DNA from: Hermatobates lingyangjiaoensis
Taxonomy: Eukaryota; Arthropoda; Insecta; Hemiptera; Hermatobatidae
Length of the DNA: 64,000 nucleotides
Assembly (NCBI GenBank): GCA_026182355.1
Contig: JAPFBL010000167.1
Coordinates: forward strand, 186,001 to 250,000
Direction of reading: 5' to 3'
Made by a program: the position numbers and the translations under genes. The notes beneath the pieces were generated by a model, which worked only from the letters and a program-made list of their open reading frames with translations, was not told the origin of the DNA and made no database searches. Below, one piece after another: positions 8,702 through 58,957 of the stretch (positions within the stretch are counted from its first letter, which is position 1; every line of letters starts with the position of its first letter).

Positions 8702-8731
8702 AACGCATTTCGAACATATAGTGTTCTTCAG
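8702..8731 (-). ncRNA. Hammerhead-like module, decayed
   Basis: Minus-strand reading keeps CUGA, the pairing of AGAACAC with UGUUC, and GAAAUGCGUU. Three bases of the core are missing compared with the copy at 43169, so it is probably dead. The flank resembles the terminal repeat of the 15.6 and 43.1 kb copies. Confidence 0.45.
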
Positions 8732-8943
8732 GTAAATTACTAAGGTTTTGTTATTGGATAGGATAATTCCTGTCATGTTTTTGATATATATTTTAAATAT
8801 AGCTAAATAAAGAGAACTACTTGTTCAAAACTCATTATTTTATTAATTAAACTTCTTTTTTGTAATTTCCTTTATAACTCCCAAGAATGAGTAAATGCCA
8901 CATTGTAATTGACTGCACTTATGCATGTATATATGTATACACT

Positions 8944-9050
8944 CAATGATCAAACCACATTATGAAATGGGGAAAAAAGACTAAGATCTTTTAACTATAA
9001 CAAGCAGTCTTAGGCTTGTTTTCCCATTTCATATTGTGGTTTGATCATTG
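8944..9050. repeat. Inverted terminal-repeat fragment, AGATCTT family
   Basis: Arms CAATGATCAAACCACA and TGTGGTTTGATCATTG enclose a worn copy of the module found intact at 18113, here without its CUGA core. The same end sequence recurs at 17.6, 25.6, 57.6 and 63.96 kb. Confidence 0.65.
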
Positions 9051-9762
9051 ATTGATATTTCACGTGTTTATATAAAATCTTTATATATGTATACACACAT
9101 GTATGAGATACAGACGGAAGAGGTGCGTGTGTAAATTGACACATGAGAGAGGCGTGTGTATATGAGAGAGTCGTCCGTATTTATATATATGTTTCTAATT
9201 TAAGTTACAACCTAGAAAACACAAAAAAGAGACTGACACTGATAATTCTCCATCATTTCGACTTTCTTGTTGTCTTCAAGAGAGGAAAAGAAAAACACAG
9301 AAGAGGAAAGGGAAGTGTGTTGTGGAAAGGTTCACCGACCGAAACAACTCATGTATATATGTTTCGATTCATAAGTGAGGAAGGCCTGGGATGTTTACTT
9401 AAAAATACAAACAAGGGTACATACACATAATATTGAAATGTAAGAATTAGTCCTTCCGGAGTTTAAATATATTCGTTTTTGTGAATGTTCCTTTCCCCTT
9501 CCCTACCATCCTATCCTACCATTCTTGAAGCCCTGCAGTCCTAACCTATGATATTTTCTCCCTCTCACTTCCCCATAACTAGCTGTGGCTTTGTATGCTT
9601 TAATTTATTTTGACTAATATACCTGTGACCTGAAGTGTTGGAATCGTATTTGGTTGTATAACGTTTTGTGTGGAGGCTGTAATTTTATCATTATGACTGG
9701 GAATTGTTCACTGACAGTACATACGAATTTATTTTCAACAAGTTACATAATTTGTTTGACAG

Positions 9763-9974
9763 ATTCTCCAACCCCATGTGTTGACTAGAGTTAGTGAATA
9801 AATACCAGAAATCATAGCTTACATAGAGAAGATCATAAAGAATGGCATGGCATATGAATCCAATGACTCTGTTTACTTTGACATAATGTCCTTAGATTCA
9901 TGCCAGAATCACCACTATGCCAAACTCGTCCTGAAGCATATGGGGATACCAGTATCTTGCAGGTCCTGCTGAAG
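9763..9974 (+). pseudogene. CARS1: CARS1 pseudogene exon 6, stop and frameshifts
   Basis: Acceptor TTTGACAG, donor GAAG|GTAAAC. The frame reads ILQPHVLTRVSE, then TAA at 9799-9801 where the family has Tyr, then IPEIIAYIEKIIKNG and SNDSVYFD. Near 9929 one base is missing: the family sequence KLVPEAYGD resumes only after a shift. A second shift follows before the exon end to reach the GELS frame of the next exon. Three independent lesions in one exon. Confidence 0.85.
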
Positions 9975-10242
9975 GTAAACTTTCTATTTCTCTTGATATG
10001 ATGATTTTTATCAATTAAAATTAACTAACTCACCTTTTTCTTTATGCCATGTACAGTTTTATAAGTCTTTTTTTTTTTACTAAACATACAACTTAACAAT
10101 ATATTAAATATTACTTTGAACATTTTATATATTGATTCATTATATATCACAATGTTTATAAAAATTTCGATCAGTTATCAGTTTTGATCAAAATACAATG
10201 GAATTTTTAGATGACGAGGTAATTGAATTATTTTATTTGCAG

Positions 10243-10470
10243 GTGAGTTAAGTGCGAAGGGCGAGAAGAGATCAGCCACTGACTTTGTCCTGTGGAAGGC
10301 GTTCAAGAGTGGAAAGCCGTGTGGGAAGCCCTTGGGGCAAAGGGCGGCCTGGCTGGCACATCGAGTGCTCGGTTATGGCTTCAGAAATCTGTGGAGATTC
10401 ACTCGACATTCACACTGGAGGAGTTGACCTTAAATTTCTCCACCATGACAATGAAATCGCTCAGGCTGAG
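10243..10470 (+). pseudogene. CARS1: CARS1 pseudogene exon 7, frameshifted zinc-site region
   Basis: Acceptor TTTGCAG, donor GAG|GTAACT. The first part reads [21 protein letters not shown], then the frame changes: [16 protein letters not shown] and [18 protein letters not shown] lie in another frame. The pattern fits two one-base losses between 10312 and 10330. The zinc ligands Cys and His of HIECS and HHDNE survive. The usual FPHH reads FLHH. Confidence 0.85.
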
Positions 10471-10518
10471 GTAACTTACATTCACTTCAAGCAGTATTCG
10501 TTTTTCCAAACCCCATCA

Positions 10519-10800
10519 ACGACCAATGAATATATCTGCGCACTATAGTGCACATCGTAACTAGCAGTTCCAGAACAGAGGCCTTCTACTACTTGATTAC
10601 TATGCTACTATAACTTATGATAACATGAACGGTCAGTAATTCATGTCAGATATTAAGTTCGTTAGTACAGTAATGACGTCGTATTCGTGATCATGTGGTC
10701 TTGTTAGTCATGGTTTTCAATGTTTTTAGTCATATGTTGGAAAAAAAATCAGTGAATGAAGTAATTGTTGAGTGAGGTTGAGGAAGGTTGGTGGCAGGAT
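10519..10800 (-). mobile_element. Jockey-like LINE, 3' end fragment
   Basis: The reverse complement matches 59880-60158 closely over about 280 bp, including the CGTTGGTCGTTG end. At 59.7 kb the same family carries the C-terminal end of a reverse-transcriptase ORF, which assigns this piece. It begins about 50 bp after a CARS1 exon, where the next exons would be expected. Confidence 0.75.
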
Positions 10801-10822
10801 TGAGAGCGAAGTTTGATGAGTA

Positions 10823-11676
10823 CAGGGGTGGCGAACAAGTTCGACAAAAAGAGCCAAGATTTTAAACTGTGAGAGTCAGAGAGCCACACCACACAAAATT
10901 ATATAATTTTAACAATAATATATTAAACACATAATATAACATGCTCAGTCAGGTGTTCTTTGTTACCTTGTTGGAGTGATGGGATGATAATCTCAATGGG
11001 ATTTCTGGCATTTTCGTTTTCAGTAATCTTCTGCAAATCAGGTTTGTATTCAGTTGTAGCCACTCGGAGCAGTTCCTTTACATGAGTGTCAGTCAGAATG
11101 GACCGGTGCTTTGATTTTACGTGTTTCAAACTAGAAAACAGCTTTTCACAGACGTATTTTGACGAGAACATAGACAGCAGCTTGAGAGCGGCTCTTTTTA
11201 CACACGGGTATTTTCAGTTGGCACAGCTCTCCAAAACATAACATGGCCTTCCTTCAAAAGAGATTTCAGTCTATCGTCCTCGCGTAGCTCAATCATTTCT
11301 AGTTCACTCGCTGCCTCATCAGTAACAAGTGGGGTTTTCAGGCAGTCGATGTCAACATTAAACGGGTCGATGAGAAATGTACAGCTGATTAGTATATGCC
11401 ATTATTACTGTAAGAACTAAATCTTGTCATTTATAAAAGACTTGTAAAAATCTCTTCTTTTTTGGTAGAAGGTACTCAGAACTTACACCTTGAGGGAGGT
11501 TTCCCTTTCCTCTAACTTGTGACATAGAAATGAGTATCAAAAGACGATGTATCTAAAACAAAATCCAAACTTGGCAAAGAGCCACAGTATACAAAATAAT
11601 GATAAGAGGCAATGAGCCGCATTCATTTTGGCCCGGAGCCGCATGCGGCTCGAGAGCCGCGTGTTCGCCACCCCTG
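10823..11676 (-). mobile_element. hAT element, truncated, with 8-bp target duplication
   Basis: Terminal repeats start CAGGGGTGGCGAAC and end with its complement (GTTCGCCACCCCTG). Flanks GATGAGTA (10815-10822) and GATAAGTA (11677-11684) are an 8-bp target duplication with one change, as expected for hAT. On the minus strand, 10923-11171 encodes a fragment with CEKLFSSLKHVKSKHRS and LRVATT, typical of the C-terminal region of hAT transposases related to those domesticated in GTF2IRD2. Most of the transposase is missing, so it could move only with outside help. Confidence 0.8.
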
Positions 11677-12205
11677 GATAAGTAGGTAGTTTGTTGTGTT
11701 TATTGGTCAAACCCCATGTTTCATTCATTCAGCTCGATTCATACAAATATTTAAAATTAAACTTAACTTATGAAAGAGTAAGGCGTTGTCTACTGATAAC
11801 TGACTTCTATTGGTTGTTGGAATTATTGTCCTAAGAGTGTCATTGATATCAAAAATCGCCATATTTGATAGTTCCCCATCTTATCTAGACAGGCCTGATA
11901 AGTCAGGACTATAAACATCCGACTCCAACTTCGAGATGTTTGAAAGTACTGACCCTGATTAGATATTTATACATATACCATTTTCGTGATGTATGTTATC
12001 CATCAACCATAATGGTATTTTACAATGCCAAATGAATCGTATGGCTAATTAGAAGTTGTAATTAACTTTAATGCTATAGCTCTACCTTTTTGCATTCTTT
12101 TTATTAACTTTCTTAAAAAATATATAATTTGAGTTTGTAAGTGTGTTTCTTTACTTTCTGTGCTACCTATCCTCAATTTTGAACTGTTTATATATATATA
12201 TATAT

Positions 12206-12330
12206 ATATAGTTCAATATAAACAAAGAAACATAGAGAAATCAGAAGAACACACTTACAGTCTCTACTTAGAGACTGTAAGTGTGTTCTTCTGATTTCTC
12301 TATGTTTCTTTGTTTATATTGAACTATATT
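12206..12330. repeat. Near-perfect palindrome, ribozyme-family end without core
   Basis: Arms beginning ATATAGTTCAATATAAAC fold back completely around AGAGACTG. The same arms surround intact hammerhead-like modules at 29381-29568. Here the module is lost and the two arms are joined directly. AT microsatellite flanks both sides. Confidence 0.8.
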
Positions 12331-13055: not shown

Positions 13056-13084
13056 TCATACAAATCGACGTGGACACGCACTTC

Positions 13085-15174: not shown

Positions 15175-15694
15175 TAGATAAAGAAAGAGTAATGAGTTTA
15201 TTTATTTTTTTATAAAAATATTTGTTTTCTACCTCTTATAATTTTGGTTTAAGATAGATAAAGAAACAGTTACGGATTTATTTTTTTCTACCTCTTATAA
15301 TTTTGGTTCAATATGCATAAAGAAAGTGTTATAAGTTTATTTATTTTTTATAGAAATATTTTTTTACATCTTATAATTTTGGGTTAAGATGGATAAAGAA
15401 ACAGTTATAGATTTATTTTTTTCTACCTCATAATTTTGGTTCAAGATGTATAAAGAAAGTGTTATAAGTTTATTTATTTTTTATAGAAATTTTTTTTACT
15501 ACATCTTATAATTTTGGGTTAAGATGGATAAAGAAACAGTTATAGATTTATTTTTTTCTACCTCTTATAATTTTAGTTCAAGATGTATAAAGAAAGTTTT
15601 ATGAGTTTATTTATTTTTTATAGAAATATTTTTCATTGTAGGGTAAAGATCTAATGAATTGGTCTCCACATATAAAAATTTTAATGATATAAAC

Positions 15695-15727
15695 AACGCG
15701 TTTCGAACACGTAGTGTTCTTCCTCAG
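15695..15727 (-). ncRNA. Hammerhead-like module
   Basis: Minus-strand order: CUGAGGA core, one extra A, stem II GAACAC/GUGUUC with loop UAC, GAA, then self-complementary ACGCGU and U. Stem I is weak (two pairs). Confidence 0.6.
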
Positions 15728-15796
15728 GCATTAACTAAGGATGTGTGCCTCTGAATAAGACAGTCTTATTCAGAGGCACTCATCCTTAGTTAATGC

Positions 15797-15829
15797 CTGA
15801 GGAAGAACACTACGTGTTCGAAACGCGTT
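15797..15829 (+). ncRNA. Hammerhead-like module
   Basis: Same module as 15695-15727 on the opposite arm of the palindrome: CUGAGGA, extra A, perfect six-pair stem II, GAA, ACGCGU. A transcript through the whole palindrome would instead pair the arms to each other. Confidence 0.6.
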
Positions 15830-16060
15830 GTTTATATCATTAAAATTTTTATATGTGGAGACCATTTCATTAGATATTTACCCTACAATGAGTAAACACC
15901 ACATAATAACTGATTGCACTACATTATAAATATTTTTTTACTACATCTTATAATTTTGGTTTAAAATAGATAAAGAAACAGTTATGAATTAATTTTTTTC
16001 TACCTCTTGTAATTTTGGTTTAAGATGGATAAAGAAAGAGTTTAGATTTAAAACTAAAAT

Positions 16061-17060: not shown

Positions 17061-17587
17061 CTTTCTTTTATTATGTATGAAGATAATCATTTTGTATTAA
17101 TTTTTTATTAAATCATTTCAAATATACTAAAAATAATAAAGCAAAAATGAATTATTTTTACCACAACTGTATCTTGTTAAAAGTTTACTGGATTCATTAT
17201 ATGAAACTACTCCTGTAGGATTCAAGTTGGATGTTAAATGTGCCACTCAATTTCAGTAAATAAGTTTGCGACGCTCATCGAGTGACACTGCCTCAGTAAT
17301 ATGATTGGCACCGCTCGCAGGAAAAAATTATTTTCTTATTTTTATTAGCAAGAAATTGCCCCTGAATTTAGTTTTAAAAGTATTTCCAAATGCCCCATAG
17401 GTTTGAAGATATACATGGCAACTCATTCGTTTCATATGGTATCAAAGCTTTAATGAAATTAATTTCATCCTGATAAGTTAATATTTGTACGTTTTAAATA
17501 AAAATAAAAAAATATGAAATTATATAATTAAAAAAAAAAACTTTTATTCGTTAGAAATCCAGCTATAGGAATACAAGTAATAGTGAA

Positions 17588-17662
17588 TGATCAAACAACA
17601 ATAAGAAATGGGAAAACAAGACTAAGATCTTTCAGCCGAAACAAGCGGTCTTCGTCAGAGTC
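17588..17662 (-). ncRNA. Hammerhead-like module, inverted to the tandem array
   Basis: Minus-strand module at 17621-17662: GACU stem I strand, CUGACGA, extra A, GACCG with CGGCU (one mispair), GAA, AGAUCU, U, AGU. It faces the tandem array at 17695 head-to-head across a short GATCC-rich spacer. Confidence 0.6.
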
Positions 17663-17694
17663 AATAAGATCCGATCCGATCCGATTGGGTTTTT

Positions 17695-18226
17695 GACTCT
17701 GACGATGACCGCTTGTTACGGTTGAAAGATCTTAATCTTGTTTTCCCATTTCATATTTTGGTTTGATCATTGATTGTTATTTCACGTGCTTATGTGAAAT
17801 CTTTATATATATCAATGATCCGATTGGGTTTTTGACTCTGACGATGACCGCTTGTTACGGTTGAAAGATCTTAATCTGGTTTTCCCATTTCATATTGTGG
17901 TTTGATCATTGATTGTTATTTTACGTGCTTATGTGAAATCTTTATTTATATCAATGATCCAGTTGTGTTTTTGACTCTGACGAAGACCGCTTGTTACGGT
18001 TGTAAGATCTTAATCTGGTTTTCCCATTTCATATTGTGGTTTTGATCATTGATTGTTATTTTACGTGCTTATGTGAAATCTTTATTTATATCAATGATCC
18101 AGTTGTGTTTTTGACTCTGACGAAGACCGCTTGTTACGGTTGAAAGATCTTAGTCTTGTTTTTCCATTTCATATTGTGGTTTGATCATTGATTGTTATTT
18201 CACGTGTTTATGTGAAATCTTTTTAC
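17695..18226 (+). repeat. Tandem array of four 139-bp ribozyme-bearing units
   Basis: Modules start at 17695, 17834, 17973 and 18113, giving periods of 139, 139 and 140 bp. Each unit has the module, then TTTTCCCATTTCATATT, TGGTTTGATCATTGATTG, TTATGTGAAATCTTT and a TCAATGATCC junction. Copies differ by a few substitutions and one 1-base insertion. Tandem hammerhead satellites are known in newts, schistosomes and cave crickets, so this arrangement has precedent. It may arise from tandem Penelope-like terminal repeats. Confidence 0.85.
18113..18155 (+). ncRNA. Hammerhead-like module, best copy of the array
   Basis: Stem I GACU (18113-18116) pairs AGUC (18152-18155). Core CUGACGA, one extra A, stem II GACCG/CGGUU with a seven-base loop, GAA, self-complementary AGAUCU, then U. 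Copies at 17695, 17834 and 17973 read AAUC in the 3' strand, breaking one stem I pair, and 17973 has GUAA instead of GAAA. Confidence 0.7.
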
Positions 18227-18577: not shown

Positions 18578-18864
18578 GAAGGCAGAACATTGGCCCTTTG
18601 TGATAACAAACAATGAACAACCTACATTGGGAGTCCTAAATTTTTTCTAACTCAAGTGTATTTAAAGTAGGGGATTTTTAACGAGTATCTGACGACATCG
18701 TACAGGCTCGGGACTGACAGCTTAACGTTCTCTCCTAAGGACGACGTGCTCAGTTTTTCTCAACTCCCGCGTGAATAAATCGAGGGCCAAGCGTAGATAT
18801 TGAATCCCCGGATCTACTAGTCCAGAGGCGAGCACATTGTCAGTGGGCTGCCCGGGCCCTTTCA
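18578..18864 (-). mobile_element. tRNA-derived SINE
   Basis: Minus-strand copy: tRNA-like head near 18864 to 18780, the middle motif (as CTCGGGACTGACAGCTTAACG on plus), and the tail phrase GGCCCTTTGTGATA near 18590. Diverged from the 53125 copy by scattered substitutions and short indels. Confidence 0.8.
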
Positions 18865-19576: not shown

Positions 19577-19647
19577 ATTAGAACCAGACCCCTCATGTAG
19601 ATTTCAGTATATAAGGACCATCGTCTGGGCCCCAAACCACCCAAGAA

Positions 19648-19691
19648 TTTGCCTGAAAATGACTGTAGACACAGTCGAAATATGTCGCAGA
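19648..19691 (+). ncRNA. Hammerhead-like module, variant B
   Basis: Stem I UUUGC pairs GCAGA over five positions (one G-U). Core CUGAAAA plus U, stem II GACUGU/ACAGUC perfect, GAA, AUAUGU, C, so all three helices and the favoured C at the cleavage site are present. Residue 8 of the core is A, not the G that hammerhead catalysis needs, so it is probably inactive or uses different chemistry. Confidence 0.5.
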
Positions 19692-19739
19692 AAAATAACT
19701 CATGATGAAAAACAAGAATCTTCGAATAATTTCCACTAG

Positions 19740-25000: not shown

Positions 25001-25044
25001 TAGGCTAAAGGAAAGAACACATACAAAACAGATACAGAAACCAA

Positions 25045-25077
25045 CTACTATATTTCGACTGCGTCGTCATCAGGTAG
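25045..25077 (-). ncRNA. Compact hammerhead-like module, all helices intact
   Basis: In 33 nt on the minus strand: stem I CUAC pairs GUAG; core CUGAUGA; one extra C; stem II GAC/GUC with loop GCA; GAA; self-complementary AUAU; A at the cleavage position. Every stem is perfect and every core residue canonical except the extra base after the core. A mirror copy starts near 25127 on plus but is decayed after its core. Confidence 0.7.
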
Positions 25078-25199
25078 AGAGATAAAGAAGTATTGGTCGG
25101 TATCTGTCTTCGGAGTGACTCACTTATATCTTCCTGATGACGACTATCAGCTAATTTTGGTGATATTTTTAATTATGTATATATATAAAATCAATTATC

Positions 25200-25342
25200 A
25201 AACCACAATATGAAAAGAAAAAAAAACTAAGATCTTAGTCACTTTTTCTTTTTCATATTTGGTTTTATCACTGATTGTTATTTCACGTGTATATGTGAAA
25301 TTTTGTTGTATATATATAACAAAATGTATATATATATACAAA

Positions 25343-25385
<43 letters not shown>

Positions 25386-25430
25386 TTATATATATATATA
25401 TATATAATATATATATACCATGATAAACGA
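25200..25430. repeat. Worn terminal-repeat fragment and TA/CA microsatellite
   Basis: 25200-25280 is a palindromic remnant of the AGATCTT ribozyme family with only ACTAAGATCTTAGT left at its centre. 25310-25420 is (TA)n with a CA run. Confidence 0.7.
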
Positions 25431-25598: not shown

Positions 25599-25721
25599 AT
25601 ATGTATATATATATATATACAAGATTTCACATGAACACATGAAATAACAATCAATGATCAAATCACAATATGAAATGGGGAAAAAGACTGTGGGTGAAAA
25701 AGTAGCTTTTTGACTCTGACG

Positions 25722-25764
25722 AAGAGCGCTTGTTACGGTTGAAAGATCTTAGTCTTCTTTCCCA
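25722..25764 (+). ncRNA. Hammerhead-like module
   Basis: Stem I GACU/AGUC intact, CUGACGA, extra A, stem II GAGCG/CGGUU with one mispair, GAA, AGAUCU, U. It is a dispersed copy of the array unit at 17.7 kb. Confidence 0.6.
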
Positions 25765-25802
25765 ATTCATATTCTGGCTTCATCATTTATATATGTATGT
25801 AT

Positions 25803-26290
25803 ACTTAAAATAAAGTAAACTTAAAATAAACTGTGACACATAGAAAGAAACGTAACAAAGAACTCAATTTTCACTATTTCCACCGTTATGGCGGTCGTCC
25901 TTTGGAGAAGTGAATTGACGGAGGGACGACAGTCAACTGAAGAACTCTCTGGTAAGAGGGCTAAAGCAGTGCTGTCGCGAAGGAGTAAATAAAAATACAC
26001 TAAGGAGTTAAGAATGAAAGAAATTTATAGAAGAAAATTCTTTAAAGAATTTTTCTCTAACATTTTTTCATTCTTGAGTCCTTAGTTTATTATTTTTCAT
26101 TTTCTCCTTCGCGGCAGCACTGTTTTAGCCCTCTTATCAGAGAGTTCTTCAGTTGACTGTCATCTTTACGTCAATTCACTTCTTCTCCTTAGGATGACCG
26201 CCAAAACGGTTGAAATATTGAAAACTGAGTTCTTCTTTACGTTTCTTTTTATGTGTTACAGTTTATGTTAAGTGTTATCAATCCTTCTGG
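25803..26290. repeat. 490-bp inverted repeat with a worn ribozyme on each arm
   Basis: Arms of about 230 bp include CTTCGCG with GCAGCACTG, and AGAGAGTTCTTCAGTTGACTG. Each arm has a module in which the core reads CUUAGGA or AAAGGAC before GACCG hairpins and GAAATA. It is probably two Penelope-like terminal repeats head-to-head. Confidence 0.65.
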
Positions 26291-29250: not shown

Positions 29251-29256
29251 ATTAAA

Positions 29257-29300
29257 AAAACTTGATGATGGTTTTTTGAAGGAACGAAACATGTCGTTTT
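29257..29300 (+). ncRNA. Hammerhead-like module, C-to-U core change
   Basis: Stem I AAAAC pairs GUUUU (five pairs). Core UUGAUGA (C3 to U), extra U, short stem II ending GAAC, GAA, self-complementary ACAUGU, C at the cleavage position. Stem I and stem III are as good as in any copy; stem II is weak. Confidence 0.5.
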
Positions 29301-29434
29301 AAGTAGATAAGTTCAATTGGAAATTAATAGTAATTATAGGATAAGAAAAGAAGTTGGTGTACAAATATTTGGAATATATATATAGTTCAATATAGACAAA
29401 GAAACATAGAGAAATCAAAAGAACACACTTACAG

Positions 29435-29468
29435 TCTCTAATTTTCGGTTTGAACCGTCTTCAGGAGA
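29435..29468 (-). ncRNA. Hammerhead-like module, all helices intact
   Basis: Mirror of the module at 29482: stem I UCUC/GAGA, core CUGAAGA, extra C, hairpin GGU/ACC with loop UCAA, GAA, AAUU, A. Confidence 0.65.
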
Positions 29469-29481
29469 GGATGGATTCATC

Positions 29482-29515
29482 TCTCCTGAAGACGGTTCAA
29501 ACCGAAAATTAGAGA
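29482..29515 (+). ncRNA. Hammerhead-like module, all helices intact
   Basis: Stem I UCUC (29482-29485) pairs GAGA (29512-29515). Core CUGAAGA (29486-29492), extra C, stem II GGU/ACC with four-base loop, GAA (29504-29506), self-complementary AAUU, A29511 at the cleavage position. The stem sequences are unrelated to the 18113 and 25045 copies, yet pairing is complete. Confidence 0.65.
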
Positions 29516-29659
29516 CTGTAAGTGTGTTCTTTTGATTTCTCCATGTTTCTTTGTCTATATTGAACTATATTTGTCCGTTTTGGATCGTATTTCCAACGTA
29601 AAAGTGTATATATATATATCTTTAAATTACATACAACACAACACAGAAAAAGAATAAAA

Positions 29660-32620
29660 AGCACACTTACTAAATTCTCAAAATTTCTAGTTCGAAATTT
29701 TCAACGTTGTTCGTCATCAAGAGTAGAATAGAAGAGAGGACGAAGTGAGAGAGATCTCTCCACTTCAAAGGACAGGCACACATTTTCTGTGTCGTGTTTT
29801 GTATAATTTAAAGTTTTATAGTCCGTGTGGACCGTTTATTCAATTTAATATTAATATATAAATATACAATATTTAAACCACAGTAAGAAATTCCGAAATG
29901 CTATACATGATTATGGTGATTTTATTAACTTTTCCTAGCAAAAATTGTGATTATATTGGCAAAATATTACAAAAATTCAATTGTTTTTTTGTACACCTAG
30001 TCAGTTTTTTTATAACGAAATAAATCTAAAAATCCTGTATGAAATAGAAAAAATCTAGAGTGGCCTACACTCTACTTTACTATAAGTAACTTAATGTCAA
30101 ATTTCTTGAGTATATAAAACATAACGTCTCATTTAAGCATAACGTAAACATCTAAATGGGATATAATTATTAGCCTTTCATTCCTGAGGTAGTACAGATA
30201 GTGATTGAAGGACATATCAATTTATAAGCTTATTTTTGTACATCACAAACATTTATTATTTGCAAATAATTTCATTAGTATAACTACAGCAGTAATAACA
30301 TTTTTGAAAAACCAATGTGAACATTTCTTGAAACGAAATATTATCCTACAAGAGAACATGGCTATTGTTCAAATAGCCAGTAGATTTCTTACATCGTTTA
30401 CTTGACATCCTTCTACATTGAATATTAATGTAAAATTTTCAAATTTGAAACAGTAAAATACCCTTTTTTTTCTCTGAAAAACATCTTAAACAGCCAAGAA
30501 AATGTGTTTTAAGCTGATTTGTTAATTAAAGATGTACGATAATTACAGTTATTAATCTCTAAACAAAAGATTTATATTTTGAATTATCTTTTACATTTTT
30601 GGTTTTTAACAGAATTATTATACTGGGAATTTTATGGCTTTTTAGTATTTAATAAGGCCATTTTCCTTCCCCTTTGTCAAATAACATATATACGAATTTT
30701 TTTTTAATGAGTGTTATCATTTACCTATACAATATTATTCCTCTTACATCTCTTATAAGTCAATAATATATTTTCATTTTTCCATTAGAACATCAATTTT
30801 ATCTCAGTGGATTCGCTCAAAAAATTTCTAAGTCAATGTAAACAATGTAAAAAAATACAAGAAATTCGACAAGTATAGCAGGTGATCTCTTAATCTAAGA
30901 TAAACAAAGAGTTTTTATATCGTTATTGCTCTTTCCCGTAATTGAAACTTCATGATTTTTTTTTTGTTAATTGCTAATTTTTTGTTCCATTTTTGGTCAA
31001 ATTTTCATTATTTTTTAACGAGCCGTTTAGCGTCAAAAAAACATTTTCTGAAAACACAAATCGTCCTGTAACGACCCTTTAGCGAATGTAATTTTAGAAA
31101 AAAATATCTCAACTCATTTTCCATATAATGTTCTATTTATAGGCATAGTTTCATTCTTGTCCGTCAAACAGTATGGCTTGTATCGCTCTCACAAGGTTTG
31201 AGATTGAATTGTTAGTCAAAATTTGTACATTTTATTGAAAAAAAAAATATTTCCTGTTGATATAAAATTCTGAATATATTTTTCGTTTGTTGCATTTGAA
31301 ACCTCAAAGATAATGTCAAAATTTCAAAACTCTAGGGTTATCAGTTTAGGAGAAATAAATGTTTTAAAAAAAACGGTTTTTGGCAAAAAAAGTGACTTTC
31401 CCATCATGCATAATTCTTCCCAAACAATAGGGATCTTCGTCTTTATGAGGCCCATTTTTGTGTAAAATATCAACTTGATCCATCAAAGATTCTGGACCGT
31501 AGCGTGGTAACAAGCAATGCTAACACACTCATCCACCCACCCACCCACCCACCCACACACACACAGACATCATCGTAAAAACGTCATAAAACGACTTCTG
31601 GGACCTCAAAACATGTAATTCCGTCAAAATCTCGAGATCGAATTTTTTCACGATCACTATACTTTACTTATAGTAAAGTAAAAATGAGATATTTACAAAA
31701 ATGATATATGCGTAATTGTTTATTAAACAATGAAATTTATTTATTTTTTAAAAATTAAAGGAGTTGGATAATTTACAATTTATACAAGATCTATGACATA
31801 CTTGGATAATTTGAGGAAAAATTTGTATCGCGTATTTAATATTAAGGTTAATTGGGGAAGTTGAACAACGCTGAAACAGAAGTTGAAATGCCAACTGCCA
31901 ACAATATTTCAGTCTTTTAACAATAGGAAAATAAATGATCGTGTATCTAAAAGAAGTTTTGATTTTAAATATCATTGGGATCCAATTTCTCTGTCTGTTT
32001 AAATTGCCTTTAGATGGTTGATAAGAAAGTGTCAACTTTCTTGGGAACAGTGGCTTCTCAGACCACATCGAAGTATGGCCTCTTCCCAACCTCTAATGGA
32101 GAGAGAGAGAAAAATAAGAGAGAATTCTAGAATGTCTGTACTGAATTAAATCAGTTTTAGTAAATACATTCTCTTAAAAGAAATTTGTATTCAACAAATA
32201 TTTTTTCTTAAAAGTAATTTTAAATATGAATATTATAAATCAAAATATTTTTTGCACTAAGTTACTTTCTTGTATCAATTTACATAAAAATACATATAAT
32301 ATTGAATAAATTTTTCAAAAAGAAATTTATTTCCTGAAAAAATAATTTTTCTGGAAAAATAAAAAAATTATTTTCTTGAAGAAATTTTGGTGAAAGAAAA
32401 TTTGATCTTTGTAGTATTTGTTTTGTTTCCAGAAATATATCACTCTGCTGTTTTTTATTTGTAATTTGATAGCTTTATTGAATAGTGTGATAGGAATTTG
32501 GTAGCCGACAATGTCAAGAGTTGATCAAATTTTTTTAAAAAAAAATTGAGCATTTAATTAAAAAATAGGGGGATTTTATTTAAAATATCGCTATTTCACT
32601 TTATAGAAATTAATTGATAA
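29660..32620. other. AT-rich stretch with repeats of unknown type
   Basis: 29670-29790 holds a worn ribozyme-family fragment (minus-strand UUGAUGACGAAC). 31530-31568 is a CACCC/CA microsatellite. ACTTTACTATAAGTAA at 30074 recurs inverted at 31664, which could mark a 1.6-kb inverted-repeat element, but the motif is partly self-complementary. No gene is recognised. Confidence 0.35.
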
Positions 32621-32682
32621 CCAGCCATGATTAGAAGAAAAGAAACACTAAGTCTATCGACACAAAAAGGATTTAATTATAT

Positions 32683-32715
32683 AACGCGTTTCGAACACTT
32701 AGTATTCATCGTCAG
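32683..32715 (-). ncRNA. Hammerhead-like module
   Basis: Core CUGACGA, extra U, stem II GAAUAC/GUGUUC (one wobble), GAA, ACGCGU, U. A mirror copy on plus near 32738-32770 has lost its core (AAGGUUAU) but keeps the hairpin and GAAAUGC. Confidence 0.55.
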
Positions 32716-33103
32716 GTTACACTGCTTCCGTAAGGTTATGAACACTAAGTGTTCGAAATGCTTGTCATTAAATCTTTTTTCTGTAGGAAGACTTAGTGTT
32801 TCTTTTCCTCTCTAATCATGAGTAAATACCACACAATGACTGCTTGCATAGTTCGTGAGTTAATTGATAACTAACTAGAGAATGTCTCTTCTTCTTCTTT
32901 TTTTTGGGGATGTTTCGACTACAATTAAATGTATTTAGAATTAATTTTGTTTCAGGGTTACTACTTTAGCTTTTTGATTTTGTAGTGGAAATCGGGTGGA
33001 CCGGGAGAAACAACCGCCTTTTTTTTTTTATAAAAAAAAAAAAAAAAAATTGTAATGTTCAGAAGTATCGGAAATCTACTGATGCTAACTTCAACCCGTA
33101 GAC

Positions 33104-36998: not shown

Positions 36999-37546
36999 AA
37001 AGAAATATTCTCCTAATGCTTCTTTCCTTCTTTGAGCCAAACTAGGGCATTGAATTGATCCAAACAAAAAAAACCCAGCATTGTCTAAAAACCAAAAGAT
37101 AAATATAACTATTATATTCTGATTTTATGTTAGGATAGTATACTGAGGAATTTTAACAATTTCAATGCTTATTATACTTGATTTTAGGAAAAGTTGAAAA
37201 ATTAAAGAATACTATAGAATGGGTACTTCCAAGAAAACTATTCATTAAAAACATGTCGCTAAACAAGTATACTAAATACATTTTAAAATATTTTTAAATC
37301 CGAACAAGTTCACAAGAGTTATTGCAAAATGTGACTCATTCTACTAAGCGCTTTATGGAACTTAATAGTCAGTTTATCGTGTGTAGGATAGGGGAATATG
37401 ATTTTGCATATATTAAACTGCATTCAAATACTAAAATTGTTTGTAGATTATGATGTTACGTGACTAGGAATATACAGACATTAAATTAATAAGCGAATGG
37501 GAAAATTGAAGAAATCCGTTTTTAAACAAATAACAGCATCAATACT

Positions 37547-37579
37547 AATGCGTTTCGAATACTTACTCTTCGTCTTCAG
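37547..37579 (-). ncRNA. Hammerhead-like module
   Basis: Core CUGAAGA, extra C, stem II GAA...UUC with partial inner pairing, GAA, ACGCAU, U. Stem III self-complementarity is broken at one position. Confidence 0.45.
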
Positions 37580-37907
37580 AATACCTCTGTTTGTAAGAGT
37601 TTGTGGAACAGGACAGATGCTAAGGCAAAGTTCTTAATTTTCTTATTATGATTAAGAGAATCATCGTATAAGGAGTAACGGGCTGTGATAATCTGGGAAG
37701 GTGAAATCGATAAAATGTAAGTACGATCCGAAGGATAAAACTTTCCCACTTATCCTGTGGAATAAATGAATTCGTCTACAGAGAGGACGCACAAAATGAA
37801 GTATCTCAGCAGGTTATGTATGTAGGAACACAGTTTAAAAGTAAGATTCAAAATAGGTAAAGTGACTCTCTTGCCACAGAATGTCATGCAAGTTGGAGTA
37901 ACAGATG

Positions 37908-38222: not shown

Positions 38223-38388
38223 AAATGACAACCGAGAACGTAGCAGTGGCAGTTTGTCTCTATCACTTAACATAACTATTATTATATCACTAGTTGTGCA
38301 ATCCGTAATTGTGTGGTATTTACTCATTCTGAGGTAAAATGGATAAATAAACAAAAGTCTCCACACAAATTAAGTTTTATTCAACAGC

Positions 38389-38421
38389 AACGCGTTTCGA
38401 ACACTTTGTGTTCATCATCAG
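38389..38421 (-). ncRNA. Hammerhead-like module
   Basis: Core CUGAUGA, extra U, perfect stem II GAACAC/GUGUUC with AAA loop, GAA, ACGCGU, U. Stem I is weak. Confidence 0.6.
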
Positions 38422-38680
38422 GAAGACATTATATCTAATGATAATCTAATCAGTTACAAAATTAGAGTGAAATAATAAAATTAAATTAAGATAATTCAAG
38501 ACATACCCAAGGATGTGGTGCTGACGAGTTGGTCCAGTGAAATCTATTTCCTACTTGTTTTCACTGGACCAACCCGTCAGCACCACATCCTTGGGTATGT
38601 CTTGAATTCTCTTAATTGAATTTTATTATTTCACTCTAATTTTGTAAGTGATTAGATATAATTTGTATTATAGTGTCTTC

Positions 38681-38713
38681 CTGATGATGAACACAAACTG
38701 TTCGAAACGCGTT
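38681..38713 (+). ncRNA. Hammerhead-like module
   Basis: As 38389-38421 but one G-to-C change mispairs stem II. Confidence 0.5.
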
Positions 38714-39221
38714 GCTGTTGAATAAAACTTCATTTGTGTGGAGACTTTTGTTTGTTTATACATTTTACCTCAGAATAACTATTATTATATTTAGCGATAC
38801 TATTATTGTTATTGTTACAGTTTACCATTATGTTAGCAGAGTATTCTAGTTTTTACTGATATCTCTCAATATTATTTTTTTTTTATAACGCAATATAATT
38901 AAAAAACAATATGTAAGATTGCAAAAAAAAAGAACGAGATCGGTAGAGGAGATGTAAAATACACTGTGCAACGCTGTATACGAGGGAATCCTAAATAAAT
39001 GGTTCATTCATTCTGTTTGTTTTCATCGGGAAAACAGATGACAACCTTAGAATTAAAGCAACACTTACAACATGGATATTTATATTAAGGCTAATAAGTG
39101 GTTTGTTTATTGGTTTAATTACGAGGTTCACACAATAAAGCATTCAGTTAAGTTCCAGAGACGGGAAGTTTGATTGATTTGTCATTTGACACCAATTTTA
39201 GCCATGACACCTACATTATTC

Positions 39222-43062: not shown

Positions 43063-43260
43063 GTAGTGCAATCAGTTATTATGTGGTATTTACTCATTGT
43101 AGGGTAAAAAATCTAATGAAATGGTCTCATAAGAGTCTTATTCAGAGGCACTCATCCTTAGTTAATGCCTGAGGAAGAACACTACGTGTTCGAAACGCGT
43201 TGTTTATATCATTAAAATTTTTATATGTGGAGACCATTTCATTAGATTTTTACCCTACAA
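43063..43260 (+). repeat. Penelope-like terminal repeat with ribozyme
   Basis: Starts GTGCAATCAGTTATTATGTG, with a short inverted stub of the CATTGTAGGG end, then the full arm seen in the 15.6 kb palindrome. It looks like an older palindrome whose left arm was mostly deleted. Confidence 0.7.
43169..43201 (+). ncRNA. Hammerhead-like module
   Basis: Identical in structure to 15797-15829: CUGAGGA, extra A, GAACAC/GUGUUC, GAA, ACGCGU, U. Confidence 0.6.
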
Positions 43261-44520: not shown

Positions 44521-45125
44521 TTTGGCTAGCATAAAATAGTCGAAATACTTTGATGAAACTATTTAGAAAGTTTAAGATTAAGATTTTAGTATTGGGATTT
44601 TTGAAAACAATTGGGAGTCGGAGTTAGACAAAAAAAAAAAAAGAGACCCTAGGAGTCGAAGTGATACCTCCATCATCCAAAATGGCAACCATCTTATTAT
44701 TAGTCCAGAGAAAGGGTCACCAAACGGGCTCTTTTCGCGAACTCCTAGCATGCTGCACTCGCAAACCTTTCTGATCTGCCAATAAAGAACGGAAAATAGT
44801 TCCTTTTTTAACTTAGAAATCTTATTCTATTCCACTGTAATGTTGCTTTCAACTGAATATGCATCTATTCACAGGCACATTAATTCTTAGTATACAGAAG
44901 TCTATAGCTTCAAAACACTGTGGATAGGAGCCTATACTAATATTACGTCTTATCCATATGGTCATATATTACCTCCTGAAAGCTCCAACTAAGAATGATA
45001 AAGGAGACGGAACAAAATCACCGACTTATTGGTATTCTTAAAAAGACCATTGCACTAATCATCAAGGCAGTTCTCTTATGTATACAAACTTTCAAAATGG
45101 AATATCTCATAAAAACAAATCGTAC

Positions 45126-45327
45126 CTTTAACTTGTTGTATGGAGACAAGTTTCTTTTCCCATCTGTCGTCAAAGGTGGAAGTGGGAACTGGTTCGAAGT
45201 CCATGATATATTGTCGCATGCCATTGGGCATGGTGAAACAACATTTGCACATGCACGAGTGATAGCGCAATCGGCCTTCTTCAAGGTAGGGATGTGCTAA
45301 AGCATCCACCACGGAGATCCTCTTCTC
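45126..45327 (-). CDS. NLK: NLK exon, end of kinase domain
   Basis: Acceptor GTTTCAG, donor AAAG|GTACG. It follows the 53-kb exon in phase 0 and reads EKRISVVDALAHPYLEEG, then RLRYHSCMCKCCF, MPNGMRQYIMDFEPVP and FDDRWEKKL to IQQVK. The RIS Arg closes kinase subdomain XI. The Cys-rich MCKCCF and the FDD-WE-L motif are diagnostic of Nemo-like kinase, which phosphorylates TCF/LEF and other factors in Wnt and Notch signalling. There are no stops or shifts. The last base G joins AG of the 33.9-kb exon to give Glu. Intron downstream 11.2 kb, upstream 8.1 kb. Confidence 0.95.
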
Positions 45328-45884
45328 CTGAAACAGAACATTATTTTACAAAAAGAATCCAGCATCTCCAACCACACTAAAAGGCTAAGACGAACCACAT
45401 ATTAAAGCTTTTACTAAGCACAATATACCTAGTTTTTTTTTCCTCCAAAGTAGTACCCCTACTTGGAAGGAGTTTATTGTAATATTTTCACATGCTCCAT
45501 AATATATTTAGTATGCCAAAAAAAGTAACGGAATGACATAAACCGGTAAATGAAACTACACTAAAAGTCAGTCTTCTACTAATGTAAATAGTGAAGATAA
45601 TTCTTTTACTTAGCACAACGTACTAAGTATGATACATCAACAAAGTTTACGTAAAATGTTTGTAAATGCCAAAAATCCACCTTATCAAACATTCTACAAG
45701 ACAGCCGGCTACGAATTCAGCTAAGGTTATTAATAAGCATAACGCACTTAGTACGTTAATAATGCATACGCAAAAATGTTAGAAATAGCATATACTGGTA
45801 AATAAAAACACAGTGCAATCAGCCTACTACTGATGAAAATAAAACTTTTATTAAGAACAACGCACATAAGCTAAAACTATTTCA

Positions 45885-46400: not shown

Positions 46401-46446
46401 CTAAGGCTAGAAATTTAACACTCTATATAATCTCGGATTAAAAACT

Positions 46447-46760
46447 ATATGAAAAACAATAACACAGTCGACATGCATAATGGTTACATAAATAAGGGAG
46501 GTTACAATAAGGCTCTGCTGACTTAATTGAAACAGTTTAAACTAGATATTTGTCCCTAAGGCTAGGCCTAATTTCAAATATCTTCTGCATTCCTGCTCGC
46601 TGACTCCTCTATATGTAGCTTCAAAATTCTTGAAATTAGGCCTAGCCTTAGGGACAAATATCTAGTTTAAACTGTTTCAATTAAGTCAGCATAGCCTTAT
46701 TGTAACCTCCCTTATTTATAACCATTATGCATGTCGACTGTGTTATTGTTTTTCATATAT
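46447..46760. repeat. 314-bp palindrome, no recognisable ribozyme
   Basis: Arms of about 130 bp beginning ATATGAAAAACAATAACACA are nearly perfect, with a 45-bp spacer. A few substitutions (for example GCTCTGCTG against CAGCATAGC) show some age. No CUGANGA/GAAA module is present. Confidence 0.85.
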
Positions 46761-48410: not shown

Positions 48411-48412
48411 AG

Positions 48413-50680: not shown

Positions 50681-50987
50681 GTTATGTTAGATTTCAGGGG
50701 CCATCCTACGTGAGAACACACATAAACCAAACATAATGAACATTTTACATTGGGAGTTCTAAAGTTTGCTTAACTCAAGTGTATATAAGCAGGGATCTTT
50801 AACGGGTACCTGTCATCGTTCAGGTTTGAGACCGACGGCTTATCGTACTTTTCAAGGGACGACATATTTAGATTTTTTTACCTCTGGCGTGAATAAATCG
50901 AGGCTTAGAGTTTAGAGTGGGTATCGAACCCCTGATCTACAAGTCCAGAGGCGAGAAGGTAAGCCACAGGGCTACCCTGGCCCATTA
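50681..50987 (-). mobile_element. tRNA-derived SINE
   Basis: Minus-strand copy from the head GGGCCAGGGTAGCCCTGTGG (near 50987) and B-box GGTTCGATACCC to the tail near 50690. It abuts the tandem block at 51000. Confidence 0.8.
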
Positions 50988-50999
50988 AGTATTATTCGG

Positions 51000-53100: not shown

Positions 53101-53124
53101 AAAGGTTAGAGCTAGGTGTACTTA

Positions 53125-53448
53125 AGGGGCCAGGCTAGCTCATTGGTTACGTGCTCGCCTCTGAACTGATAGGACCGGGGTTCGATCCTCACCTGGCCCT
53201 CGATTTATTCACGCGGGAGGTGAATAAATCTGAGCGCGTCGTCCCTCGGAGAATAACGTTAAACCGTCGGTCCCGAGCCTGTACGATGTCAGGTACTCGT
53301 TAAAGATCCCTACTCTAAATACATTTGAGTTAGGCAAAATTTTTAGGACTCCCACTGTAGAATTAAATCTTCATTGTATGGTATCACAAAGGGCCAATGC
53401 TCGGCCTACGTGTGTTCCCTTGTGGAACTGCCACTCCAACCTAACCTA
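53125..53448 (+). mobile_element. tRNA-derived SINE, best copy, at an NLK splice donor
   Basis: A tRNA-like head (53126-53199) opens GGGCCAGG and closes CCTGGCCC, with A box TAGCTCATTGG (53136-53146) and B box GGTTCGATCC (53179-53188). A unique body follows, then a 3' part shared with the LINE fragments, ending CCAACCTAACCT. Target duplication CTAGGTGTACTTA lies at 53112-53124 and 53449-53461. The right copy runs into the minus-strand splice donor of the NLK exon, leaving only 14 intron bases between exon and SINE. Confidence 0.9.
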
Positions 53449-53462
53449 CTAGGTGTACTTAC

Positions 53463-53651
53463 AGGGTCAAAGACGAGCATCTGGCAAAGGAGATGGACTG
53501 CCTCGTGCGTGGCCTGCGCCGACAGGGAGTAGAGCGCGGACAGGGCGGGCGGCTTGACCCTGTGCCTCAGCATGTGCGTCAGCGCGCCCTCGCAGGCGAA
53601 CTTCATCTCTTCTTTAGAGGGCGTGCCCAGCAGGTCTGTGATCAGCTCCAG
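53463..53651 (-). CDS. NLK: NLK exon, kinase C-lobe
   Basis: Acceptor TTGTTACAG, donor CCT|GTAAGT. Sixty-three codons read LELITDLLGTPSKEEM, then ACEGALTHMLRH, LSALYSLSAQATHEAVHLL and CQMLVFDP. This is the C-lobe of the Nemo-like kinase, a proline-directed Ser/Thr kinase of the CMGC group. The family residue string around ITDLLGTP and ATHEAVHLLC-MLVFDP is distinctive. It is GC-rich, in contrast to the AT-rich introns, as expected for a constrained exon. The upstream exon, which should end near ILFQAQSP, was not found up to 64 kb. Intact frame and matching phase with the 45-kb exon argue for a live gene. Confidence 0.95.
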
Positions 53652-53929
53652 CTGTAACAAATCACTTCTATAGAGCCTTTTGCAAACAAACAAATTAACA
53701 TTGAAATGTTCATTTTATTCACACTTCAATATTTATGCCTTTGAGCTTATAATTTAACTATTGAATAAATAACAGAATCGAGAGGATAGCTTATGGCAGC
53801 ACTCCGTAACATGATCCAGCATAACGCACAATTTTGGCGTACAAGTTGAGTTCCATAGTAATTTCCTTTTTAACCATCTTGAAGGGTTGTGAAAGAGGAT
53901 AGGCTTTGGTAGGAGTATGCATGACAATA

Positions 53930-54225: not shown

Positions 54226-54229
54226 TTTC

Positions 54230-57200: not shown

Positions 57201-57330
57201 GCGTGACCTCAACTTAACAAGCTAAGTTAATTTAACTTTGCTTCGTGGGAGTGATGAGATTAAAGCTCTGATTTATTTTATATTTCTTCAAGAATAAGAC
57301 GAGTAATTCTGATAACGATCTAACTTTTCA
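54230..57330. other. AT-rich, nothing recognised
   Basis: No exon of NLK or other gene could be read on either strand. A short AAT run lies near 55510. Confidence 0.4.
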
Positions 57331-57540
57331 ATCAATAAATGACTAAAGTATTAGACTTATACTTCTAAACCAGCCATTGTAGTTATTCTACTAATAAGCC
57401 ACTAATGTGATAGACTTATAATTACCTTTGATGAGTAGACTTATTATAGCTATGGGCCAGTAATGGTTTTTTTACTTATGAGTCAATAAAAGGTAATGCT
57501 TATACTTATAAGCCAAATGGTATTTATACCATTATAAAAA

Positions 57541-57700
57541 GATTTCACATAAACACGTGAAATAACAATCAATGATCAAATCAAATCAACAATCAAAACA
57601 CAACTGAGTTGGGTTTTTGACTCAGACGAAGACCGCTTGTTACGGTTGAAAGATCTTAGTCTTGTTTTCCCATTTCTTATTATGGTTTGATCATTTATAC
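57541..57700 (+). repeat. Inverted terminal-repeat element, AGATCTT ribozyme family
   Basis: Begins with the inverted short arm GATTTCACATAAACACGTGA, CAATCAATGATCAAAT, then the full arm with the module and GGTTTGATCATT. Confidence 0.75.
57621..57664 (+). ncRNA. Hammerhead-like module, one core change
   Basis: Stem I GACU/AGUC, core CAGACGA (U4 to A), extra A, GACCG/CGGUU, GAA, AGAUCU, U. The U4 change should abolish hammerhead activity. Confidence 0.5.
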
Positions 57701-58087
57701 CATTATATATAATATATAACCACTATACTAAATACTATATAGTATACTATATACTAGTGGTATATACTATACCACTATACAAGTATAACTCACTGATGTC
57801 ATAGATTTATCACTGTAAGTAAATAGTGGTACTTATAAGTCATTGATATGGTAAACTTATACTTATGAGCAAATAGTGTTAGATTTATACTTATAAGTCA
57901 TTTATATGACACGTTTATTATACTCATGAGGCAATAATGATAGTTATTATACTTATAAGCCACTAATGTGATAGACTTATTATAGCAATCAGCCAATAAT
58001 GATTTTTATACTTATGAGTCAATAAAAGGTAATGATTATACTTATAAGACAAGTGGCAACTTATAAGACAACTTGTATAAGTTTGCC

Positions 58088-58550
58088 TTGAAAATGCCAA
58101 ATAATTTTTGGCGAAACATCGGCGTATAAACAGGAGTTTATACGCCTAAATCCTTAAGAACCCCTTTATTTGAACTTTAGTACTTCGCTTGACTCACATT
58201 TAACAGTAGAAAAAAATAATGACACTGGAGCAATAATGACATTATGCACGTTTAATGATGACGTTTAAACATCATTATGCAATGGTATGATGACGTTTAA
58301 TGAATAGATGATCAAAGTTTTAATGTCAGACAAACGACTTTTCTGATAATGAAACTATGTGATGAAACACTTTGGCAGCTTCATCAGAAGATGTTATTCT
58401 GATTGACCAACTTTTGTAAGAAAATAATATACTAATGTAAAGTTGACATTTTTCCTTCTTTGTTACCTTTTAGTTACATAAGGGGCTATAATAAAATCGA
58501 TGAAATTGCAAAAGTGCACCGAACATGTCACAATTATTCGAGTTCTTTCG
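58088..58550 (+). repeat. Dispersed 460-bp repeat opening with a variant-B module
   Basis: Opens with UUGAAAAU, hairpin GCCA/UGGC, GAAACAUCGGCG. The downstream 310 bp (CATTATGCACGTTTAATG to AAGTGCACCGAACATGTC) recurs at 61394-62005. The reading on minus includes SSDEAAKVFHQIASLSEK, of unknown family. Confidence 0.7.
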
Positions 58551-58923
58551 CCGTTATTGTGGACTTATCAATGTAAGTTAGTAGTGGTACTTACAAGCCA
58601 TTGATAAGGTAAACTTATACTTATGAGCAAATATTATTAGATTTATACTAATAGGTTATTGATATGATATATTTATTATACTCATGAGGTAATAATGGTA
58701 GTTATTATACTTATAAGCCAATTGGTATCTATTATACTTATAAGCAATGACGTGGTAGACCTATAATAAGCTTTAATGTGGTAGAATAATTTACTTTTGA
58801 GCAAACAGTGGTAATTACTATACTTATGAGCGATTGATGTAGACCTGCTGCCCTTATCATTCAATAGTTTTTAAAATTATGTGTAAAATACGAGAAAGTA
58901 ACAGTTAGAAAAGCATGCCTTCG

Positions 58924-58957
58924 CCTCCTGATGACGACGATGGTCGAAATATAGAAG
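58924..58957 (+). ncRNA. Hammerhead-like module, compact
   Basis: Core CUGAUGA, extra C, stem II GAC/GUC with GAUG loop, GAA, AUAU, A. Stem I CCUC/GAAG has one mispair. Same layout as 25045-25077 with a different stem I. Confidence 0.6.

Follow-up and report, generated by a model that had tools for sequence, protein, structure and literature searches.

Hammerhead motifs with a diminished stem III in short head-to-head insertions resembling Penelope-like elements in the genome of Hermatobates lingyangjiaoensis

Small hammerhead variants of Penelope-like elements (PLEs) were reportedly described by Lunse, Weinberg and Breaker in 2017 and by Cervera and de la Pena in 2014. In dimer-acting hammerheads the missing stem III would form between two molecules. 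Hammerhead dimers are mentioned in passages of PMC6155905 and PMC7761336, and the latter, a review of 2020, calls the in vivo activity and role of minimal PLE hammerheads “still a mystery”. PLE traits given in parts of PMC3846280 include head-to-head pseudo-long terminal repeats (pLTRs), a tail on one pLTR and duplications of 8–10 bp. According to passages of PMC11167929, the enzyme of Poseidon PAc from Anolis carolinensis cuts both strands of its target, reverse transcription starts inside the RNA at two adjacent sites, and insertion in vitro is independent of hammerhead cleavage. Here a 64-kb stretch (“the window”; positions 186,001 to 250,000 of contig JAPFBL010000167.1) of the 910-Mb assembly of the hemipteran Hermatobates lingyangjiaoensis was analysed. 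It appears likely to us that this DNA harbours type I hammerhead motifs whose stem III is diminished, that many of these lie in short PLE-like insertions composed of two head-to-head copies with one 3′ tail, and that the RNAs concerned would cleave as dimers.

The hammerhead core was sought on both strands of the window with a descriptor consisting of CTGANGA, a hairpin of at least 3 bp and GAAA, which gave 15 matches; 100 first-order Markov sequences averaged 0.6 and had at most 3. A fuller descriptor, with a stem I of at least 4 bp, stem II, a short stem III and U-H, matched 6 times (0.03 in the Markov controls, maximum 1). Covariance models were trained on 17 modules, 8 from the window and 9 from contig C1, with R1 (n = 9) representing modules with six bases from GAAA to the predicted cut and R2 (n = 8) those with four. 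At E≤0.01 the window contains 17 matches of R1 and 7 of R2, 8 of these 24 being training members, in agreement with a preliminary description of this DNA that had noted about twenty hammerhead-like modules; further modules were found elsewhere in the genome. The Rfam search listed no hammerhead, either at gathering scores or at E≤10. Position 16.1 is U in 16 of 17 representative modules and H17 is never G (17/17), while stem III consists of 1–3 pairs with the loop absent or of two bases. By these sequence features the modules are type I hammerhead motifs with a diminished stem III, of the kind known from PLEs. Individual copies with damaged cores occur. Among the examples singled out in the preliminary description, those at 18113, 29482 and 25045 (cores at 18117+, 29486+ and 25073 minus) are intact with four stem I pairs each, whereas that at 19648 (core 19653+) has the altered core CTGAAAA, that at 29257 has a one-base insertion in its core (CTTGATGA, R1 E 0.0018), and several of those listed show core damage or incomplete pairing in stem I.

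Stems I and II covary between families, as had been claimed on the basis of compensatory changes in two helices. In the R1 class (9 modules) the covariation score was 0.719, compared to 0.297 after shuffling, and in the R2 class (8 modules) 0.500 compared to 0.168, with 0 of 500 shuffles as high in either case. Cells changed on both sides of a pair numbered 26 (10.0 expected) and 10 (3.0 expected), respectively, again with 0/500 shuffles. For pairs changed on both sides, 6 and 7 of 500 shuffles in the R1 and R2 classes matched the observed count, and for further pair types 125 of 500 did so in the four-base class (A3 alignment). Structures slid along the alignment as a control scored 0.04–0.21. 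These values are to be read with the selection of modules in mind, which used stem II and mostly not stem I, and with the presence of close relatives among the alignment rows (A/A25, F/F3/F58). For stem I, with the cleavage offset set by one rule in 15 families, 45 of 60 pairs are formed compared to 30.5 after permutation; families M and N, whose offset was set to five bases, were left out of this test, and their addition gives 53/68 compared to 36.2.

The window is ordinary for its genome in this respect, given the content of another 200 kb from a different contig (33 strict modules, 32 R1 matches at E≤0.01), so that the earlier impression of an unusual number of lineages in 64 kb does not hold. 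Over the 910 Mb, cores of the C/C′ type occur 18,142 times, the reversed pattern 5 times, and the end patterns of families A and B have 49,953 and 12,553 matches, respectively, at ≤2 mismatches (control 0 for both). A scan of viral contigs gave five matches without bearing on the present elements; a hammerhead-like stretch, perhaps a phage hammerhead, was seen on one viral contig (L001, approx. 1943–1972, minus strand).

The modules are organised in a characteristic way. In the window, 13 of the 24 lie inside a palindrome or head-to-head pair with the hammerheads facing outward, and 3 more in an attached tandem array. In the genome, with neighbours defined as lying within 2 kb among the first 100 listed places per search, 19 of 22 pairs in family C and 29 of 29 in family B have the head-to-head orientation. 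Family A was followed through 264 kb, which yielded 67 arms (reference arm included) and 24 head-to-head pairs. In 20 of these 24 the shorter arm stops between +30 and +46 and the longer one between +69 and +97, none has two long arms, and the four exceptions to this one-tail rule are incomplete or short alignments. Likewise, the 3′ tail is present on one arm only in 7/7 family C/C′ palindromes with both cores, and all seven have direct repeats of 9–16 bp at their outer ends, which in four exceed the longest of 200 shuffles. Inverted head-to-head terminal copies as in PLEs are found here. In families A and C/C′ one copy of the two carries a 3′ tail, and the direct repeats of the C/C′ palindromes fit a target-site duplication of about 8–16 bp. 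For families F, K, M and N, most BLAST matches beyond +25 were matches to the AT-rich tail and were left out.

Which RNA was copied may be read from the ends and junctions of the arms. Among 63 family A arms reaching at least 20 nt beyond the predicted cut, 35 hold the core and everything downstream, with the others starting inside the motif (12), within two bases of the cut (5) or beyond it (11). In 40 arms picked by their downstream pattern, the core is kept in 28 and the site in 35. The inserted copies sampled thus mostly carry uncut ribozymes. In family B, where 20 close pairs of 29 listed were compared, the 5′ ends of most arms roughly coincide, near GGGTCTCCAACC, whereas the 20 centres all differ from one another by eye. 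The arms of one pair are nevertheless concordant at two diagnostic columns, in 20/20 and 17/19 cases compared to 10.0 and 9.8 expected; some arms are misaligned or truncated at these columns (L102, L108, L110), and two further variable columns sit at the junction itself. Differing centres with concordant arm variants indicate that each of these palindromes arose independently and from a single RNA sequence. In family A, 254 junctions lie near the cut, and among 39 listed with their letters 22 are centred exactly on AAGATCTT, which fits annealing through a self-complementary site; at another 98 places the junction is centred on stem II. An origin of the palindromes from the joined ends of hammerhead-cleaved RNAs, suggested by 12206–12329, 25604–25791 and 8940–9054, was considered and rejected after wider sampling. 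Of 28 truncated family A arms, 5 start within 2 nt of the predicted cut, perhaps a weak excess; no such starts were seen by eye in a second sample of 40, and 0/39 listed junctions are cut-to-cut.

An intron provides information on the strand that served as template. In the family C′ copy of the window (38.3–38.8 kb), CATCCTTGG is followed by GTATGT, and TATTATAG stands just ahead of the hammerhead exon, while in another C′ copy (L011) the two exons are joined. The joined (spliced) form has 3,410 matches in the genome at ≤1 mismatch and the unspliced donor 2,112 (control 0 for both). The spliced copies argue for sense RNA as the template. The sharp arm starts at −44 in family C and −40 in family C′ had been taken for processed RNA ends, an idea that was dropped as the start coincides with the splice acceptor in C′. 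Judging from the pyrimidine-AG upstream, the arm starts of families C and A may be splice acceptors too, the spliced forms counted being those of C′.

A connection with PLEs, to which the preliminary description had pointed, gains support from the one-tail pairs and from a coding sequence. A 1,617-bp inverted repeat (L016), 98.8% identical, has a GIY-YIG domain (PF01541, E 2.5e-5), and each of its arms has a family C hammerhead 530 nt downstream of it; a third arm (L009) shows the same order. In these three arms the distance between the two, on the same strand, is 350–580 nt. No GIY-YIG frame was detected in the remaining family C loci among the 27 examined (L006–L033 without L010), and none was found with families A and B. 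The family O module is preceded on its own strand, at a distance of about 960 nt, by a more distant endonuclease match (38% identity). At least 142 GIY-YIG matches occur in the genome, part of them in reading frames as long as 850 aa. One of the loci, L114 (C354:126500–133200), consists of two retroelement copies placed head to head and 99.9% identical over 2.76 kb. It contains an 850-aa frame, which gave no Pfam match although it was picked from the PF01541 match list, and no hammerhead core was found in the locus, apparently a young PLE lineage without the hammerhead motif.

The stem III strand has a further property. From A15.1 to U16.1 it is self-complementary in 13 of 15 families, 12 of them with Watson-Crick pairs only. 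Among eight distinct strands, AGATCT, ACGCGT, ACATGT, ATATGT, ATAT and AATT are self-complementary, and ACGCAT and ACATAT are not; by chance, at this composition, the property is expected with a frequency of approx. 0.39 when the strand has four bases and 0.15 when it has six. A strand of this kind would form the missing stem III between two molecules, as dimer action would need, and the RNAs are predicted to self-cleave when two copies pair.

From the features seen directly, i.e. the motif and its covariation, the head-to-head order, the one-tail rule (A, C/C′), the direct repeats (C/C′), the splice forms of C′, the GIY-YIG domain upstream of family C and the family B junctions, we infer an enzyme acting in trans, two-ended priming, dimer action and self-cleavage. 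Sense RNA, often spliced in family C′ and mostly with its hammerhead uncut, would be bound in trans by a PLE reverse transcriptase/GIY-YIG endonuclease, which would cleave AT-rich target DNA on both strands. Complementary DNA (cDNA) would begin at two fixed internal sites of the RNA, each used at a different DNA end. Of the two resulting cDNAs one would have a tail and the other none, and they would then be joined at their 5′-RNA ends, sometimes via short matches. Two fixed 3′ ends suggest two initiations, one per DNA end, in agreement with the in vitro results on the Anolis element in passages of PMC11167929. Arm variants held in common point to one RNA or sister RNAs, and centres without a loop to two strands meeting, while the junctions centred on stem II are readable as a fold-back.

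Several observations weigh against this interpretation. Eight of the 24 window modules are outside any palindrome found, and stem I is partly paired in families C (3/4), C′ (2/4) and D (1/4). The neighbours found for family A, with 37 of the 100 listed exact matches used, form two pairs that are both + then −, one of them being two copies of the same sequence (L079, L080). The flanking repeats of 3/7 C/C′ palindromes are no longer than the longest shuffle, and the 22/39 identical junctions of family A may also reflect the copying of some palindromes in one piece. The link to a GIY-YIG domain is seen in family C only, besides the distant match of family O, and in ten GIY-YIG loci of two other, most frequent lineages no clear own hammerhead was present in the next 1 kb; three modules of ambiguous ownership occur among these ten, two strict in L120 and one damaged in L123.

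Two-ended priming with end joining is the most likely mode of formation, and self-priming its main rival. In the latter, a cDNA folds back at its 3′ end and serves as its own template, the two arms thus deriving from a single molecule. This was proposed for Penelope elements of Adineta vaga, there with an antisense template, and is preferred in the Discussion of PMC3846280. The variants shared by the arms of one family B palindrome would follow from it, as would the turn in the stem II loop of the window palindrome at 25451–25598 and the 98 family A places with such a centre. A fold-back copy is not expected, however, to have two arms with different fixed 3′ ends, the AAGATCTT junctions are loop-less (22/39 listed), and the spliced copies indicate a sense template. 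We therefore consider self-priming possible, if rather unlikely. It is also tempting to speculate that the hammerhead is mainly an RNA-pairing device and not a cutter, its stem III strand joining sister transcripts in a dimer of which the enzyme copies both members, one per target end. Such a role would account for the head-to-head order of the insertions, the restriction of the tail to one arm, the AGATCT junctions without a loop, the shared arm variants and the mostly uncut ribozymes; it is the boldest reading and a rather improbable one. Retrozyme-like spread, in which hammerhead-cut monomers circularise and are copied around into tandem arrays, finds a parallel in the 3.9 tandem units of 139 bp at 17678–18222 with a hammerhead in each, and in the type I hammerheads of metazoan retrozymes (passages of PMC7229834). 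It is nonetheless improbable: one such array was seen in the window, families A, B and C are dominated by pairs in head-to-head order, most family A arms continue through an uncut site, and the stem III of 1–3 pairs is not the stable one of a canonical type I hammerhead. Still less credible are DNA transposons similar to miniature inverted-repeat transposable elements (MITEs), the terminal inverted repeats of which would merely contain hairpins; the palindromic shape, short direct repeats and very high copy number are compatible with them, but the family B centres all differ by eye (20/20), the ends are unequal, the intron is present in some C′ copies and absent from others, and covariation is seen in the helices of the hammerhead. 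Whole palindromes moved as units with fixed ends were not what was found, although 22/39 listed family A junctions near the cut are identical. Chance hairpins in AT-rich DNA, conceivable for a short motif at low GC, can practically be dismissed, as equal numbers were looked for in randomised sequence and not seen (15 core matches against 0.6) and the C/C′-type core outnumbers its reversed pattern in the genome by 18,142 to 5.

Table 1. Hammerhead-like modules, palindromes and head-to-head pairs of the window, with covariance-model matches
Feature	Coordinates	Strand	Match
Hammerhead-like module, core damaged by deletion	8694..8739	-	R1 E 6.8e-5
Family A head-to-head pair; arm starts differ, being at stem II in one and close to the predicted cut in the other	8940..9054	.	
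Weak hammerhead-like match	9243..9287	-	R2 E 6.8e-4
Family B palindrome without hammerhead; arm starts 2-3 nt ahead of predicted cut	12206..12329	.	
Family C palindrome, arms 97% identical, tail only on right arm	15633..15891	.	
Family C module	15687..15735	-	R1 E 5.4e-10
Family C module, training member	15789..15837	+	R1 E 5.4e-10
Family A, one inverted copy attached to a tandem array (139-bp unit, 3.9 copies)	17575..18222 (array 17678-18222)		
Family A module	17616..17666	-	R1 E 2.2e-6
Family A module	17691..17741	+	R1 E 6.6e-8
Family A module	17830..17880	+	R1 E 4.8e-7
Family A module, GAAA changed to GTAA	17969..18019	+	R1 E 3.5e-5
Family A module, stem I GACU/AGUC intact	18109..18159	+	R1 E 9.6e-9
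Family J module, core CTGAAAA, training member	19645..19694	+	R1 E 1.3e-8
Family F1 module, stem I CUAC/GUAG, training member	25041..25081	-	R2 E 2.5e-13
Family A head-to-head pair, joined via AAGATCTT	25185..25281	.	
Family I palindrome, centre in stem II loop	25451..25598	.	
Family A pair; left arm begins at predicted cut	25604..25791	.	
Family A module, training member	25708..25758	+	R1 E 4.8e-8
Family I palindrome	25819..26273	.	
Family I module, core CTTAGGA	26180..26227	+	R2 E 6.8e-7
Module with GAAACATGTC, one-base core insertion	29254..29303	+	R1 E 0.0018
Family B palindrome, two hammerheads facing outward	29380..29570	.	
Family B module	29431..29472	-	R2 E 1.9e-11
Family B module, stem I UCUC/GAGA	29478..29519	+	R2 E 3.6e-11
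Weak hammerhead-like match	29686..29728	-	R2 E 5.2e-4
Family D module, stem I 1/4 pairs, training member, inside 75% palindrome 32626-32820	32675..32723	-	R1 E 1e-8
Family E module, training member	37539..37587	-	R1 E 1.2e-8
Family C′ palindrome, arms with intron, tail only on left arm, 16-bp direct repeat at outer ends	38326..38776		
Family C′ module, training member	38381..38429	-	R1 E 5.1e-10
Family C′ module	38673..38721	+	R1 E 7.5e-9
Family C module; inverted partner 43078-43128 shortened	43161..43209	+	R1 E 5.4e-10
Family A head-to-head pair, arms unequal	57533..57699	.	
Family A module, core CAGACGA	57615..57665	+	R1 E 3e-7
Family F module, training member	58920..58961	+	R2 E 1.9e-14

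Besides the features of Table 1, the window has a large palindrome at 46446–46759 with no hammerhead match and another at 63338–63809 with two GAAACATGTC stretches whose cores are damaged. Several palindromes are situated in or beside (TA)n repeats (25309–25418, 12176–12219, 63771–63832), which fits a preference for AT-rich targets. The elements are surrounded by a host gene, represented by cysteinyl-tRNA synthetase exons (PF01406) at 5214–5591 + (E 7.8e-16) and 10252–10545 + (E 2.4e-26), as in a eukaryotic gene split by introns. Exon-like frames at 45079–45345 − and 53409–53714 −, with a possible likeness to a protein kinase (NLK), gave no Pfam match, and the second gave no PDB match either. 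A hAT transposase dimerisation region (PF05699, E 4.7e-7) is found at 10926–11213 −. Other repeats include the segment 10517–10806, present in inverted orientation at 59863–60152; a tandem array at 34226–35182 with a 63-bp unit, 15 copies and a 247-bp higher-order period; and a dispersed repeat of up to approx. 290 bp, unrelated to the hammerheads, in both orientations and 74–80% identical (18579–18861, 37944–38203, 42061–42185, 50728–50986, 53124–53407).

Four points go beyond the preliminary description: the palindromes with their head-to-head order, the tail on one arm only, the C′ intron and the self-complementarity of the stem III strand. In the full-text literature, which most subscription papers lie outside, no paper was found that joins the one-tail rule, an intron and a self-complementary stem III strand, and for non-autonomous Penelope elements one paper with a single occurrence was listed (PMC6685494). 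The ends, junctions and splice states of very many short insertions, belonging to several unrelated hammerhead families, record which RNA was copied: in the samples, the usual template would be uncut sense RNA, often spliced in family C′, with the arms of family B deriving from one RNA sequence and those of A and C/C′ having fixed, unequal 3′ ends. Such constraints bear directly on the movement of this third class of eukaryotic retroelements, and with copies in the many thousands the role of the ribozyme would become testable.

Among known systems, the small PLE hammerhead variants (passages of PMC7761336 and PMC6155905, and the references of PMC10085705) likewise have a type I core, a minimal or missing stem III, proposed dimer cleavage and many dispersed copies, and occur in PLE pLTRs. 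Unlike these, as known from citing passages, the motifs described here lie in head-to-head insertions poor in open reading frames, with the one-tail rule, the C′ intron and the self-complementary stem III strand. Metazoan retrozymes (PMC7229834, in part) are also short non-coding repeats with type I hammerheads; they are tandem, circular and provided with canonical hammerheads, whereas mainly head-to-head pairs with a diminished stem III, and one 139-bp tandem array, were found here. Poseidon PAc (passages of PMC11167929) is a PLE with a hammerhead, coding and tested in vitro, in contrast to the genomic fossils of short elements considered here. The Penelope elements of Adineta vaga, as presented in parts of PMC3846280, share with those of H. 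lingyangjiaoensis the inverted head-to-head pLTRs, junction palindromes, tail on one pLTR and 5′ truncation. They are of low copy number and coding, with an antisense template considered, whereas here very many short copies carry hammerheads, some in spliced form, and point to a sense template.

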